Assembly: GCF_002563655.1 (NCBI RefSeq)
Contig: NZ_PDIY01000001.1
Span: forward strand, 2,144,001 to 2,208,000
Source: Bacillus sp. es.034
Lineage (GTDB): Bacteria > Bacillota > Bacilli > Bacillales > Bacillaceae_B
DNA length: 64,000 nucleotides
Direction: 5' to 3'
In this document: piece after piece, positions 34,764 through 60,462 of the stretch
Numbering within the stretch: position 1 is the stretch's first letter
Layout: the number at the start of each line of letters is the position of its first letter
Position numbers and translations under genes: made by a program
Notes under the pieces: model-generated
What the model was told of the DNA's origin: nothing
Databases searched by the model: none
The model's input: only the letters and a program-made list of their open reading frames with translations

Positions 34764-34931
34764 AATGCAATAGGTTGAAGTGCATCCTATAAAAAAGTGG
34801 AGTGAAAAACTAAAAAGGATTAAATCTATCTAAATGATGGTAAGCACCGAGAATTATATTATAATGAAAGTACAATTACATAAACAGTTTGGATGTTGGG
34901 GTTAATTTTCTTTGGTATGGAGGCACAACAC

Positions 34932-35648
34932 ATGAGCAAAAAAATCTTGGTAGTCGATGATGAACAATCCATTGCAACACTCTTAAAGTACAATCTGGAG
35001 CAATCCGGTTATTCAGTGACAACAGCACATGACGGCGCGGAGGGGAGGGATCTTGCGATTGAACAGTCCCCGGATTTGATCGTCCTTGACCTGATGCTTC
35101 CGTCTATGGATGGAATCGAGGTATGCAAAGAATTGCGGCAGCGAAAGATCAATATCCCGATTCTGATGTTAACGGCGAAGGATGATGAATTCGATAAAGT
35201 CCTCGGTTTGGAGCTTGGTGCGGATGACTATATGACAAAACCATTCAGCCCCCGTGAAGTGGTGGCGAGGGTGAAGGCGATCTTAAGGCGAAGCCAGGCC
35301 ATCCGGGAAACGGAACCGGCAGCCGAGGAACCGACCGATTATAAGGAAGTCGGTGAACTAAAGGTATATCCTGAACAATATGAGGCGTATTTCCAAGGAG
35401 AATTACTTGAACTGACACCGAAGGAATTCGAGCTTTTATTATATTTGACGGATAACAAAGGGCGAGTCCTTACGCGGGATCAGCTGCTGAGTGCGGTATG
35501 GAACTACGACTTTGCAGGAGATACGAGAATCGTGGATGTGCATATCAGCCATCTCCGTGAAAAAATCGAGTCCAATACGAAAAAACCAACCTATATCAAA
35601 ACGATCCGTGGTCTCGGGTATAAATTGGAGGAGCCTAAAAATCGATGA
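34932..35648 (+). CDS. phoP: Phosphate-response regulator PhoP
   Basis: A 238-residue OmpR-type response regulator. Receiver: KKILVVDDEQSIATLLKYNL, phosphorylated Asp53 in LIVLDLMLP, Lys in DYMTKPFSPRE. Winged-helix effector: ELTPKEFELLLYLTDNKGRV, WNYDFAGDTRIVDVHISHLR. It activates the Pho regulon by binding TTWACA repeats spaced at 11 bases. The ATG is 8 bases after GGAGG. It overlaps phoR by four bases. A possible TATAAT lies near 34858; a Pho-box itself is not obvious upstream. Confidence 0.95.
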   Translation: MSKKILVVDDEQSIATLLKYNLEQSGYSVTTAHDGAEGRDLAIEQSPDLIVLDLMLPSMDGIEVCKELRQRKINIPILMLTAKDDEFDKVLGLELGADDYMTKPFSPREVVARVKAILRRSQAIRETEPAAEEPTDYKEVGELKVYPEQYEAYFQGELLELTPKEFELLLYLTDNKGRVLTRDQLLSAVWNYDFAGDTRIVDVHISHLREKIESNTKKPTYIKTIRGLGYKLEEPKNR

Positions 35649-37444
35649 CCAAATTTAGAACAAAGCTCCTATTTGCTCTCATTACGTTGATCATCGCTGT
35701 CTTAATAGGGCTTGGTCTGCTTTTAGGCCAGATTTTCAAGAACTTCTATTTAGATACGTTCAACTCCAGGATTCAAAAGGAGACCAGATTACTGGCAAGC
35801 TCTATTGAGGAGAACGGGGCACCGAAAGAAATCGATCCTGAAATGATCAAAGGGTTGAGCGACATATTGGATGTCCGGATCACCGTGCTCGATAAATCCG
35901 GGGATGTGGTCCACGATACGGATACAGCAGATTCACTGGTTGGTCCGCAGCAGAAGAAAATCGTAAAAGAAATCCAGAAAAACTGGGATGTGAAACAGAA
36001 GCATAAAAAACTCGTCACTTCTGGAAATGAATTTCGGTATTACTGGTATCCATTAAAAAATGCCAACGGTGAAATGATGGGACTTCTCATTATGAGCGCA
36101 GAGGTTGATGCCCTGGAAAGAGGGACTCAGCAAATTTGGTTTGTACTGTCCATTTCATTAGGACTTGCCCTGGTCCTCATCATCATTCTTGGCTCAAGGA
36201 TTACGGTGAGGTACACAAAGCCCATCGAATCAGCAACCAATGTGGCCATGGAACTTGCCAAGGGTAATTACCGTGCCAGGACCTACGAGGATCGGCTGGA
36301 TGAAACGAGTATGCTCAGCACCTCCATCAATATTCTGGCTCGAAACCTTCAGGAAATGGTAAATGCCCAGGAAATGCAGCAAGACCGCTTAACAACATTG
36401 ATTGAAAATATGGGGAGTGCTCTCCTATTGATTGATCACCGGGGTTTTGTCGTCTTAACGAACAGGACGTTCAGGGAATTCTTTAACCTGGAGGAAAGCC
36501 AACTGAAGAAAGTACGGTACCATGAGGTGATTCACTATTCTGAAGTGAATAAGCTTGTGGAGGAAATCTTTATGACGGAGGAGCGGTTGCGAAAGCAGAT
36601 TCTCCTTCCGTACAAGCTTGATCGAAAGCACTATGAAGTGTACGGAGCCCCCATTATCGGCAACAATGACGAATGGAAAGGGATCGTTGTCGTATTCCAT
36701 GACATCACCGAGCTTAAAAAGCTTGAACAGATGCGCAAAGATTTTGTGGCGAATGTGTCTCACGAATTGAAAACGCCGATCACCTCGATCAAAGGATTCT
36801 CAGAAACACTATTGGACGGGGCAATGAACGATCCCGATACGTTAAAATCCTTTTTAGACATCATTCTAAAGGAAAGTGACCGGCTGCAGTCCCTCATTCA
36901 GGATCTGCTGGAGTTGTCTAAAATTGAGAAGCAGGGATTCCAGCTATTCGTCGAGGAAGTGGAAGTGGCAGGGCTGATAGAAGATGTAATCCCGATTTTA
37001 AAAGAAAAAGCAAAGCCGAAGGACATTTCCCTTCAAGCCGATTTCGAATCAAGGGGAACGGCAGAAGTGGATTCCTACCGGTTAAAACAGGTGTTCATCA
37101 ACCTGATCAGCAATGCGATCGCTTATACTCCAAGAGGCGGAAATGTCTCGGTCAAGGTGCAGGACGATCAGGATAAGGTGTATGTAAAAGTGAAGGATAA
37201 CGGGATGGGGATCAGCCAGGAAGAGCTCCCCCGTATTTTTGAACGATTTTACCGGGTGGATAAAGCGAGAAGCCGGAATTCAGGCGGCACCGGTTTGGGC
37301 TTGGCGATTGTCAAGCACATCATTGAAGCCCATGAAGGTGATATTGAAGTGGAAAGTGAACTTGAAAAAGGAACGACTTTCACTGTCACATTGAATAAGA
37401 GCTCTTCATCCATCTCTCATGGTGGAAATCAAGGGAAACTTTAG
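35645..37444 (+). CDS. phoR: Phosphate-sensing histidine kinase PhoR
   Basis: A 599-residue membrane kinase: helix 1 (about 8-27), an extracellular sensor, helix 2 (about 163-184), HAMP, a PAS domain (about 250-345), dimerisation domain with phosphorylated His373 in NVSHELKTP, and an ATPase domain with NLISNAIAYTP, DNGMGIS and GGTGLGLAIVK. It phosphorylates PhoP on phosphate limitation. Its stop is followed after only 16 bases by a Pho-box, and by no pst genes. Confidence 0.95.
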   Translation: MTKFRTKLLFALITLIIAVLIGLGLLLGQIFKNFYLDTFNSRIQKETRLLASSIEENGAPKEIDPEMIKGLSDILDVRITVLDKSGDVVHDTDTADSLVGPQQKKIVKEIQKNWDVKQKHKKLVTSGNEFRYYWYPLKNANGEMMGLLIMSAEVDALERGTQQIWFVLSISLGLALVLIIILGSRITVRYTKPIESATNVAMELAKGNYRARTYEDRLDETSMLSTSINILARNLQEMVNAQEMQQDRLTTLIENMGSALLLIDHRGFVVLTNRTFREFFNLEESQLKKVRYHEVIHYSEVNKLVEEIFMTEERLRKQILLPYKLDRKHYEVYGAPIIGNNDEWKGIVVVFHDITELKKLEQMRKDFVANVSHELKTPITSIKGFSETLLDGAMNDPDTLKSFLDIILKESDRLQSLIQDLLELSKIEKQGFQLFVEEVEVAGLIEDVIPILKEKAKPKDISLQADFESRGTAEVDSYRLKQVFINLISNAIAYTPRGGNVSVKVQDDQDKVYVKVKDNGMGISQEELPRIFERFYRVDKARSRNSGGTGLGLAIVKHIIEAHEGDIEVESELEKGTTFTVTLNKSSSSISHGGNQGKL

Positions 37445-37459
37445 TCGTTTTTCACCTTA

Positions 37460-37498
37460 TTTACATTGTTTTTACAATCGCTTTAAATTCAATTAACA
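37460..37498 (+). promoter_or_regulatory. Four-repeat Pho box (PhoP~P binding site)
   Basis: TTTACA, TTTACA, TTTAAA and TTAACA start at 37460, 37471, 37482 and 37493, an exact 11-base period with 5-base spacers. This is the arrangement of activating PhoP sites (TT[A/T/C]ACA repeats) in Bacillus. A -10 like TACGAT or GATACT follows at 37508-37516, 10-13 bases after the last repeat, so a PhoP-activated promoter with a start near 37523 is likely. Confidence 0.75.
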
Positions 37499-37522
37499 AT
37501 GGGGTGTTACGATACTAAGTGA

Positions 37523-37592
37523 AACCCCTTCATCCAAGGTGTTGCGAAAAGACGAGAACCAACCCCGTTCTCGTCTTTTCGCTTTTTATTTT
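37523..37592 (+). ncRNA. Candidate PhoP-activated small RNA
   Basis: The predicted transcript from the Pho box promoter meets a strong terminator within about 70 bases and contains no start codon with ribosome site. Its unpaired parts are C-rich: ACCCCTTCATCC near the 5' end and AACCAACCCCG in the terminator loop. Such CCCC patches are how several Gram-positive regulatory RNAs (FsrA, RsaE type) bind Shine-Dalgarno sequences. The alternative is that the Pho box is a relic of a lost pst operon and the hairpin is merely the phoPR terminator. Confidence 0.45.
37544..37592 (+). terminator. Strong terminator downstream of phoR
   Basis: GCGAAAAGACGAGAAC pairs perfectly with GTTCTCGTCTTTTCGC around a 7-base loop, followed by TTTTTATTTTT. 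Confidence 0.93.
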
Positions 37593-37638
37593 TGATAACG
37601 CTTTCGAAACCTCTCTTGTCATCTTCCCTTAATATTAT

Positions 37639-37715: not shown

Positions 37716-38678
37716 ATGAGCTTGAAGCGTGTTTACACTGTAGCAGGAATGGTGCTCGCAGCCATTATTCTAATTGTTGTCCTACTGACATCCTGGTATA
37801 CCGTTGACGAATCAGAACAGGCACTGGTGTTGACGTTCGGGGATGCAGGCGAACCGGTTGTGGAACCTGGACTGCATTTCAAGATGCCGTGGCCGGTGCA
37901 GTCAGTGGAAGTGCTGTCGAAAGAAACCTTCAGTCTTCAATTTGGATATGAAGAAAAAGACGGGAAAATCAAGGACTTTCCTAAAGAGACAAAAATGATC
38001 ACGGGGGATGAGTACATTGTGCTTGCCGATCTTGTGGTTCAATGGAAAATCACGGATCCTGAAGCCTATTTATTCAATTCGGATAAACCGAAAGAAATTC
38101 TGTACGATGCAACTTCTTCTTCACTAAGAAGCATTATCGGAAGCTCATTGATCGATGATGCCTTAACGTCCGGGAAAGCCGAAATCGAGGCAGATGTAAG
38201 GGATTTATTGACGGAGTTGATCGATGATTATGATATTGGGATATCGATTCTTGCGGTGAAGTTGCAGGATGTTGAGCTGCCGAATGCAGAGGTCCGCTCG
38301 GCATTTACGGCGGTAACGGATGCAAGGGAAACGATGAATACGAAAATCAATGAAGCCAAGAAATATCGAAACCAGCGAACCAACGAAGCCAAAGGGGAAA
38401 AAGATGCCATCATGTCCCGGGCCAAAGGGGATAAAATCGCACGTGTGGAGCAGGCACGTGGAGATGTAGCGGTATTTGACAAATTATACAATGAGTATAA
38501 ATCGAATCCTGAAATTACAAGAAAGCGTCTCGTGCTGGAAACATTGGAAAATGTCCTGCCCGATGCAGAAATTTATATCATGAAGGATAGTGGAGAAACC
38601 CTGAAATACTTCCCTATCCGTCAAATGGAGAATCAGAATCCTCCGGTGAAGCAGGAAGGAAGTGATGAGAATGAGTGA
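37716..38678 (+). CDS. hflK: FtsH-modulator HflK (SPFH domain)
   Basis: A 320-residue protein with one N-terminal membrane helix (about 8-28), a prohibitin/SPFH domain (ESEQALVLTFGDAGEPVVEP, GLHFKMPWP) and a coiled coil rich in AKG, AR and EAK repeats. With HflC it forms a membrane ring that restrains the FtsH protease. AAGGGAGG precedes the ATG. It is expressed from a sigma-W type promoter, so the pair is probably part of the envelope stress response. B. subtilis has no hflKC at this site. Confidence 0.85.
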   Translation: MSLKRVYTVAGMVLAAIILIVVLLTSWYTVDESEQALVLTFGDAGEPVVEPGLHFKMPWPVQSVEVLSKETFSLQFGYEEKDGKIKDFPKETKMITGDEYIVLADLVVQWKITDPEAYLFNSDKPKEILYDATSSSLRSIIGSSLIDDALTSGKAEIEADVRDLLTELIDDYDIGISILAVKLQDVELPNAEVRSAFTAVTDARETMNTKINEAKKYRNQRTNEAKGEKDAIMSRAKGDKIARVEQARGDVAVFDKLYNEYKSNPEITRKRLVLETLENVLPDAEIYIMKDSGETLKYFPIRQMENQNPPVKQEGSDENE

Positions 38679-39606
38679 TCAAAACGTATTTGATATCAAT
38701 ACAAAGAAGAAAGAACCGATCGAGTGGAAGAGTTATACGAAATTAGGAATCTTTTTCGTGATCCTCATCGCTGTCATTCTTCTCCTCTTCACAAGTCTCT
38801 TCATTGTCAAAGAAGGAGAATATAAAGTCGTCCGTCAATTTGGAGAAGTGGTACGGATCGATAAGGAACCGGGTATGAAATATAAGATCCCGTTCATCCA
38901 ATCCGTCACGACCTTACCGAAGCACCAAATGACCTATGACGTGACTGAAGCAGAGATCAATACCAAAGATAAAAAGCGGATGCTCATCGACAATTATGCC
39001 GTGTGGCGCATTGAAGATCCTCTTAAGATGATCAAGAATGCCAGAACGGTGATCAATGCCGAGACGAAGATGGAAGAATTCATCTATTCCGTTGTCCGTT
39101 CAGAGCTCGGTCGATTGGAATATGATGAAATCATCAATGATGAGAAGTCATCAAGGGGAAGCTTAAACGATAAAGTGACAGATAAGGTGAATGAGCTGTT
39201 GCAGCGGGATAATTATGGTATCGTCGTTCAGGATGTCCGCATGAAGCGTACAGATCTGCCTGAAGCGAATGAAAACTCCGTCTATACCCGTATGATCTCG
39301 GAACGGGACTCCAAAGCACAGGAATACCTGTCCATGGGGGATGCCGAGAAACAAAGGGTGACGGCTGAAACCGATCGTGAAGTGAAAGAGCTCCTTGCTA
39401 AAGCAGGGGCAGACGCCAATGTGATCCGGGCAGAAGGGGAAGCCGAAGCCGCACAAATTTACAACAAATCCTTCACGAAGGATCCGAGCTTCTATGACCT
39501 TTATAAAACCCTCGAAACGTATAAGAAGACCGTGGATGACAAAACCGTCATCATCTTACCATCCGATTCGCCGTATGCGAGGCTGTTGATGGGGTACACG
39601 GAATAA
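38671..39606 (+). CDS. hflC: FtsH-modulator HflC (SPFH domain)
   Basis: A 311-residue partner of HflK with a membrane helix (about residues 28-47) and SPFH domain (VKEGEYKVVRQFGEVVRIDK, MKYKIPFIQS) then a helical tail VTAETDREVKELLAKAGADA. It overlaps hflK by eight bases. The ATG is 8 bases after GGAAG; two in-frame starts upstream are less well spaced. Translational coupling fits the hetero-oligomer. Confidence 0.85.
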   Translation: MSDQNVFDINTKKKEPIEWKSYTKLGIFFVILIAVILLLFTSLFIVKEGEYKVVRQFGEVVRIDKEPGMKYKIPFIQSVTTLPKHQMTYDVTEAEINTKDKKRMLIDNYAVWRIEDPLKMIKNARTVINAETKMEEFIYSVVRSELGRLEYDEIINDEKSSRGSLNDKVTDKVNELLQRDNYGIVVQDVRMKRTDLPEANENSVYTRMISERDSKAQEYLSMGDAEKQRVTAETDREVKELLAKAGADANVIRAEGEAEAAQIYNKSFTKDPSFYDLYKTLETYKKTVDDKTVIILPSDSPYARLLMGYTE

Positions 39607-53685: not shown

Positions 53686-53840
53686 GGTGAATTGAATACA
53701 GTTTGGTACAAGTAGGAGCTACCCGCTTCTCACCTGAATAACGCGTTTAAAGCTGTTACCAGGTATGTGATTGACTATTAAAGCCATTTATATATGCTTA
53801 ATAATCAGGTGCGGGTGTTTCGACACTCGCATCTTTTTTT
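53686..53840 (+). ncRNA. L20 leader of infC-rpmI-rplT
   Basis: In this position B. subtilis and relatives carry an L20-binding leader that ends in a terminator; excess L20 stabilises the terminator form. Here the leader runs from the promoter to a hairpin GGTGCGGGTGT/ACACTCGCATC with TTCG tetraloop at 53808-53833 and a T7 run. The upstream pairs (GGTGAATTG..CACCT) suggest the antiterminator. Identification rests on context and structure, not a covariance search. Confidence 0.75.
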
Positions 53841-53921
53841 GTGTCTTGGACATGGAAAAAGGAAGCGGGAGCGTCGGCCAAAGCCGTGTATTCTTTTAAT
53901 AAACCTTGGAGGTGGCTAATT

Positions 53922-60196: not shown

Positions 60197-60462
60197 CATA
60201 TAACTTAAAAAACGTTGAAAGAGGAAAGTAACACATGACCTTCTTCAAGGGAGAGAATGCCCTGGACTGTAAGCATTCTTAAGAAAACATGATGTGAACA
60301 TTTCACCTCTCGAGTTGGCATCGGGACCATTCCACGAGTGAATGTAAAGATGCTCCGGCATAAGCCGTTATCCGAATGAAGTGAGTAGATCCCCCTGTGG
60401 ATATGCTTATAAGGGTGGTACCGCGATCTAAACCTCGTCCCTTTTTGGGATGGGGTTTTTTT
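60197..60462 (+). ncRNA. T-box leader of pheS-pheT
   Basis: The specifier codon TTC (60302-60304), read by tRNA-Phe, is followed by ACCTC, as in the thrS leader. The T-box TGGTACCGCG (60416-60425) pairs through TGGT with the ACCA tail of tRNA-Phe. The terminator AACCTCGTCCC/GGGATGGGGTT with T7 lies at 60431-60462. Uncharged tRNA-Phe switches the operon on. Confidence 0.93.

Follow-up and report, generated by a model that had tools for sequence, protein, structure and literature searches.

Immediately behind phoR lies a short element that is most likely the Rossellomorea form of the small RNA (sRNA) PhoS, the comparison being with the published PhoS as reviews describe it. The element carries a perfect array of four Pho-type repeats, a C-rich 5' tail and a terminator, and the tail is complementary to a site in the phoP leader. 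We consider it probable that this RNA is a counterpart of PhoS which amplifies the Pho response in a feed-forward manner: under phosphate shortage, PhoP~P would bind the four repeats behind phoR and would switch on a 67-nt RNA ending at the terminator of the phoPR operon; the 5' tail of the RNA would then pair with the phoP leader, about 27 nt ahead of the start codon, and the pairing would free the ribosome site, with more PhoP as the result.

The window, i.e. the whole stretch of 64,000 nt that was analysed, is part of a 4.5-Mb single-contig genome, and its forward strand reads, in this order, phoP, phoR, the sRNA element, hflK (37716), hflC and polA (Table 1). hflK begins 271 bases past phoR in the same direction and, together with hflC (37716-39606), separates the element from polA; in some genomes of the order polA lies close behind the element and hflK is absent from the stretch. 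The name phoP is given from the gene order and from 1mvo (which we take to be PhoP of B. subtilis), the best PDB match of the receiver domain, with an alignment that starts at the first residue of the receiver; no NCBIfam model scored above its cut-off for this protein (best YycF, 289.9 of 340 bits). The longest ORF call for phoP begins at GTG 34893, within the leader site for the sRNA, and ATG 34932 is the better start. PhoR is 98% identical to that of Rossellomorea vietnamensis NBRC 101237, the closest named record at the locus.

Table 1. Features of the phoPR locus and of the element behind it (positions of the window).
Feature	Positions	Strand	Basis or remark
Complementary site in phoP leader	34882..34904	+	core UUGGAUG-UU-GGGGUU at 34889-34903
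phoP ribosome-binding site GGAGG	34919..34923	+	sequence
phoP	34932..35648	+	start ATG 34932, not GTG 34893 (SD spacing, receiver alignment)
phoR, PnpS-type sensor kinase	35645..37444	+	NCBIfam NF046044 above cut-off
Four Pho (PhoP) repeats, 11-base period	37460..37498	+	presumed activator site of the sRNA promoter
-10 box GATACT	37511..37516	+	TATAAT or TATACT in the same alignment column in some relatives
PhoS-like sRNA, predicted	37522..37590	+	ends in T run; R1 covariance model and fold
Invariant seed ACCCCUUCAUCC	37524..37535	+	identical in 36/36 genus loci
Rho-independent terminator, loop CAACCCC	37544..37592	+	16 pairs in stem 37544-37582, loop 7, T tail

The initial annotation had pointed to four TTWACA-type repeats at 11-base intervals, and these are indeed present as TTTACA (37460), TTTACA (37471), TTTAAA (37482, with a single deviating base) and TTAACA (37493), with a spacing of exactly 11. 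When the 4.5-Mb genome was scanned with the pattern TTWACA-N5-TTWACA-N5-TTWAMA-N5-TTWACA, whose third unit allows TTTAAA, only two places matched perfectly, namely the one behind phoR and another upstream of pstS; with up to three mismatches there were five places (one being the same array read with an offset of 11), and the reversed pattern, used as a control on this genome, gave none. The second perfect array is found at G000:C1:2445605-2445643 (L232), with a permease-type ORF behind pstS; both gene names are presumptive, having been given by eye to the reading frames. The array scored above dinucleotide shuffles (p <= 0.05) in 36/36 genus loci and in 70/70 order loci scored (70 of 76, after dropping L162, L164 and four without a usable upstream stretch), with mean scores of 22.1 in the genus, 21.0 in the order and 14.7 in shuffles, out of 24 positions; L096 and L097 are counted in both sets. 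Relative to ACCCC/seed, 27 of the 36 genus loci have the best start of the array at -63 to -65, and nine have it at -75, with one extra repeat upstream; outside the genus it is mostly -65. The -10-like sequence noted after the repeats is best read as GATACT, since some relatives show TATAAT or TATACT in that column, and a start near 37522-37524 with a product of about 67 nt is therefore predicted. An activated promoter of this kind would need no -35.

A 16-base perfect terminator had been described within about 70 bases of the promoter, with CCCC in the 5' tail and in the loop, and both are found (the former CCCC at 37525-37528). The fold of 37522-37588 (67 nt) has a predicted energy of -30.1 kcal/mol (z = -9.3); the seed lies partly inside a weak predicted hairpin of four pairs, and the 5' segment is otherwise predicted to be single-stranded. 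The terminator presumably also serves as that of the phoPR operon. That no gene lies in between also held, as the ORF list for the phoR-hflK interval contains none of at least 40 aa; 37500-37600 is overlapped by three shorter ones (26-37 aa), of which one begins at GTG 37519, ahead of the predicted +1, and a small-peptide reading of them was set aside by inspection, since alignment A1 has indels. Rfam returned no family for the interval, with no match at E <= 5 on the strand of the element and two sub-threshold hits on the other. In a DNA search of its own genome the element is single-copy, the second match being the terminator palindrome on the opposite strand.

The initial annotation had proposed a search for the element in relatives. 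It was found behind phoR in every one of the 36 Rossellomorea genomes that make up the genus sample, and the 12-base seed as well as the loop ACCCCG are kept in 36/36 of these loci, a count that comes from related and thus not independent sequences. The covariance model gives one strong match in each genome, together with 11 further weak places (E 7e-4 to 0.009), of which four are the same palindrome on the other strand and seven lie elsewhere. In an ungapped comparison anchored on the seed, the first 10 bases have a mean column identity of 1.00 and the remainder of the RNA one of 0.71 to 0.91; the promoter reaches 0.64 to 0.80, and the DNA past the terminator 0.39-0.45. In the stem, 14 scored pairs are 100% paired across 36 distinct sequences and six of them are altered on both sides, a result that was reached by none of 500 shuffles; as any terminator would show such covariation, it speaks for an sRNA less strongly than the seed does. 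The Litchfieldia loci L022 and L023 are omitted from alignment A1 and from the model because their stem differs.

Across the order, the model matched 200/397 genomes and 69/135 genera at E <= 0.01, a figure that is inexact both ways, as inspection mainly covered matches below E 2.2e-4, as two of the inspected matches are false (L162, L164) and as diverged versions were missed (L307 and L308, possibly also L309, L313 and L316). Of 76 order loci inspected (16 given by the tool and 60 picked for diversity, hence not a random draw; two are genus members), 74 lie behind a phoR match on the same strand, at a distance of 57-352 bases. pst genes had been expected to follow phoPR in many bacilli, which the order does not bear out; a match to hflK or polA, whatever the genes in between, lies within 1 kb downstream at 73 of the 74 true loci, the remaining one (L170) running to the contig end. 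As controls, the loci of 16 genomes that the model did not match at phoR (10 from the order and 6 from outside it) were read by eye, and a diverged version with a Pho-like array was seen in L307 and L308; G080, G492 and G535 in this set have a weak match elsewhere, and the stretch of L312 showed no phoR. In the search of the class, 50/398 genomes matched, 24 in the order and 26 outside; among the latter, eight loci were inspected, all of which lack the exact seed as well as a PhoR match, and we take these as chance terminators.

According to two reviews (PMC12101431, PMC13001227), through which the source, Li et al. 2024 (NPJ Biofilms Microbiomes 10:115), is known here, PhoS is a 66-nt sRNA from the phoR 3'UTR of B. 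velezensis FZB42 and B. subtilis, with its own promoter stimulated by PhoP, and it acts via the phoP 5'UTR by enhancing translation of PhoP; a figure legend in PMC12101431 has it instead that PhoS stabilises phoR mRNA, while the text says that phoP translation is enhanced. The first listing of the RNA is credited to the FZB42 dRNA-seq paper (PMC13001227), the main text of which (PMC4634765) mentions neither phoR nor phoP. The element studied here is placed in the same way, on the 3' side of phoR with a terminator there; it has at sequence level its own Pho-type promoter between phoR and the RNA (perfect array and -10); its predicted length (67 nt, 37522-37588) compares with the published 66 nt; and it is complementary to the phoP 5'UTR. 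Because position, size, Pho boxes and target match, we filed it as Rossellomorea PhoS. It differs from PhoS of Bacillus in belonging to another genus and in having hflKC between itself and polA. The link to the B. subtilis group comes from a genome with a PhoP receiver 99% identical to 1mvo, in which the same seed is found behind phoR, and GGAUG-UC-GGGG at 22 nt from the phoP start on its upstream side. The predicted pairing is stronger in Rossellomorea than in this B. subtilis-group genome (-29.0 vs -16.9 kcal/mol, the latter a bare energy).

The element had been proposed as a new Pho-regulated RNA. The small RNA itself is well supported by conservation, but its novelty is at most that of a new PhoS member, since a PhoS in this position has already been described for Bacillus. 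What is new is the breadth of the conservation and the shared site in the phoP leader; among the matches listed from the open-licence literature, no paper dealt with conservation of PhoS beyond Bacillus. The range of a PhoS-type RNA thereby grows from two species of Bacillus to a large part of an order.

Comparison with RsaE/RoxS and FsrA, which are C-rich sRNAs of Firmicutes, shows that C-rich single-stranded patches are common to all of them. Rfam contains an RsaE model, and unlike RsaE/RoxS the element has no Rfam match on its strand at E <= 5; it also differs from both RNAs in its Pho-type promoter, which stands in place of the control that governs them (the FsrA promoter is Fur-controlled). 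The suggestion of an FsrA/RsaE-like contact with Shine-Dalgarno sequences is borne out only in part: the predicted partner of the C-rich tail is the phoP leader, at a site 14 nt upstream of the ribosome site and not at that site itself; judged by PhoS, such pairing should activate. An sRNA linked to a regulator named PhoP is also found in mycobacteria, in a case (Mcr7) where we take both the regulator and the RNA to be other than those here. Mcr7 is described as a PhoP-dependent ncRNA (PMC4038636).

The leader sequence UUUGGAUGUUGGGGUUA complements the 5' tail of the sRNA (AACCCC-UU-CAUCCAA) and ends 27 nt ahead of the phoP start and 14 nt ahead of GGAGG. The predicted duplex has -28 to -29 kcal/mol and stands out from its shuffles (p = 0.005, z = -4.7), and of the two exact matches to TTGGATGNNGGGGTT in the genome one is this leader site and the other lies within an ORF. 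Pairing was better than in shuffles (p <= 0.05) in 29/29 genus leaders (mean z -4.1; of the 36, L059 was dropped because its stretch starts past phoP, and L050 and L060-L064 have no phoP leader) and in 36/66 leaders outside the genus (mean z -2.0), where phoP starts were set by rule and some may be wrong. There is thus good support for predicted pairing throughout the genus leaders and in roughly half of those outside. For the other 30 of the 66, pairing did not fall below p = 0.05, and clades that keep the seed are among them. In 58 of the 65 significant leaders (29/29 in the genus, 29/36 outside), the distance from the end of the site to the start is 20-32 nt. The cognate RNA paired better than the mean of foreign RNAs in 27/29 genus leaders and in 45/66 outside (one-sided Wilcoxon p = 0.0012 for the 66), counts that are inflated by the relatedness of the sequences. 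A regular expression found the leader motif in 29/29 genus leaders, in 23/66 outside leaders with the element, this low number being due to the other spacings of many sites, and in 0/16 control genomes without a model match at phoR. The leader often follows a change in the RNA, as in L151 and L170 (RNA CCCCAUCAUCC with leader GGAUGA...GGGG), in L124 (RNA CCCCCUUUAUCC with leader GGAUAAGGG; overall not above shuffles) and in L111, where 23 pairs are predicted with the phoP leader (-39.9 kcal/mol). Since the target site is shared, the mechanism is testable by natural and designed compensatory pairs.

By analogy with the published PhoS, as the reviews present it, the pairing would activate and not repress phoP. 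When the leader site was blocked in genus sequences, predicted accessibility of the ribosome site rose from 0.49 to 0.67, against 0.54 for sites blocked elsewhere, and the real site was above the mean of the other blocked sites in 23/29 leaders. Outside the genus it changed from 0.54 to 0.60 against a control of 0.59, i.e. without an excess, and the real site exceeded the mean of the others in 21/41. A run without this control, which is less trustworthy than the controlled one, gave 0.49 to 0.69 (29 in the genus) and 0.55 to 0.69 (38 outside). The folding model lends modest support in the genus, and none outside it, to the idea that pairing may raise phoP translation.

It is possible, if rather unlikely, that the conserved function of this PhoS-type RNA is exerted on other targets, with seed and loop acting on several ribosome sites and phoP being one among them or a lineage-specific one. 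The seed is exact or near-exact in L123, L136, L144-L150, L160 and L165, while pairing with the phoP leader there does not exceed shuffles, and the hairpin loop ACCCC is kept in 36/36 genus loci though it lies outside the phoP duplex. For L144-L150, L160 and L165, with the seeds ACCCCTTCATCC or ACCCTTTCATCC (their phoP leaders are L203-L209, L219 and L222), this suggests another target; for loci of this kind, either the rule misplaced the start or leader, or the tail pairs over a longer range, or a different message is what the seed acts on. A search of the own genome for the seed complement with up to two mismatches gave 170 places against 69 for the reversed control, an excess that may be coding bias. 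Of the 170, 25 were examined by a simple rule (ribosome site and long ORF), and apart from a 78-aa ORF in L244 it was phoP alone that was picked, which speaks against several targets in this genome; the invariance of the seed may also reflect demands of RNA stability or of its promoter-proximal position. That the seed is near-frozen even in genomes where no phoP site is obvious points to undiscovered targets.

An action in cis, in which the PhoP boxes behind phoR work by looping or local loading of PhoP and the short RNA is a by-product of the operon terminator, appears improbable to us. In B. subtilis, PhoP boxes that lie past the phoR stop and ahead of the operon terminator are reported to augment phoPR autoregulation by a mechanism as yet unknown (PMC6232261), which fits such an action as well, and our results bear on this report of a boosted Pho response. 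However, the single-stranded 5' segment is the best-conserved stretch and has a matching site in the phoP leader, and a role as terminator only explains neither. Still less credit is due to promoter and terminator as an attenuator for hflKC-polA, disfavoured here despite the nearby hflK start in the same direction, as the DNA past the terminator lacks conservation in the ungapped comparison and the downstream gene varies (hflK or polA) while the element is constant. That the element is the relic of a lost pst promoter, as had also been proposed, is hardly credible and likewise disfavoured even though the array resembles that before pstS, since pstS exists elsewhere in the genome with its own perfect array, a match to hflK or polA lies within 1 kb at nearly all order loci inspected, and the RNA body is far better conserved than the DNA past the terminator.

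Returning to the PhoS counterpart, we tentatively suggest, at somewhat less than even chances, that PhoS is an ancient Gram-positive RNA arm of the Pho response, order-wide and with a co-evolving phoP site, that a further conserved target keeps its seed almost frozen even where the phoP site has been lost, and that it survives in one family beyond the order with the seed changed to ACCCCUUCAUUUUAG. In two genomes from outside the order (L317 and L318 of G492 and G534; 2.4-2.5 Mb), ACCCCUUCAUUUUAG is found behind phoR, where Pho-like repeats and TATAAT are followed by AGACCCCTTCATTTTAGAA and a terminator whose stem differs. This element, possibly a diverged PhoS, is missed by the covariance model (the sole match of G492, at E 0.01, lies elsewhere, and G534 was unmatched in the class search). 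In L130, L151 and L170 the seed variant CCCCATCATCC is followed by CTGGAT, with which CATCCA or ATCCA could self-fold as read by eye, so the seed there is possibly masked by its own hairpin. Elsewhere in the window, Rfam identifies an L20 leader (53704-53844) and a T-box (60206-60445), both of them ordinary.
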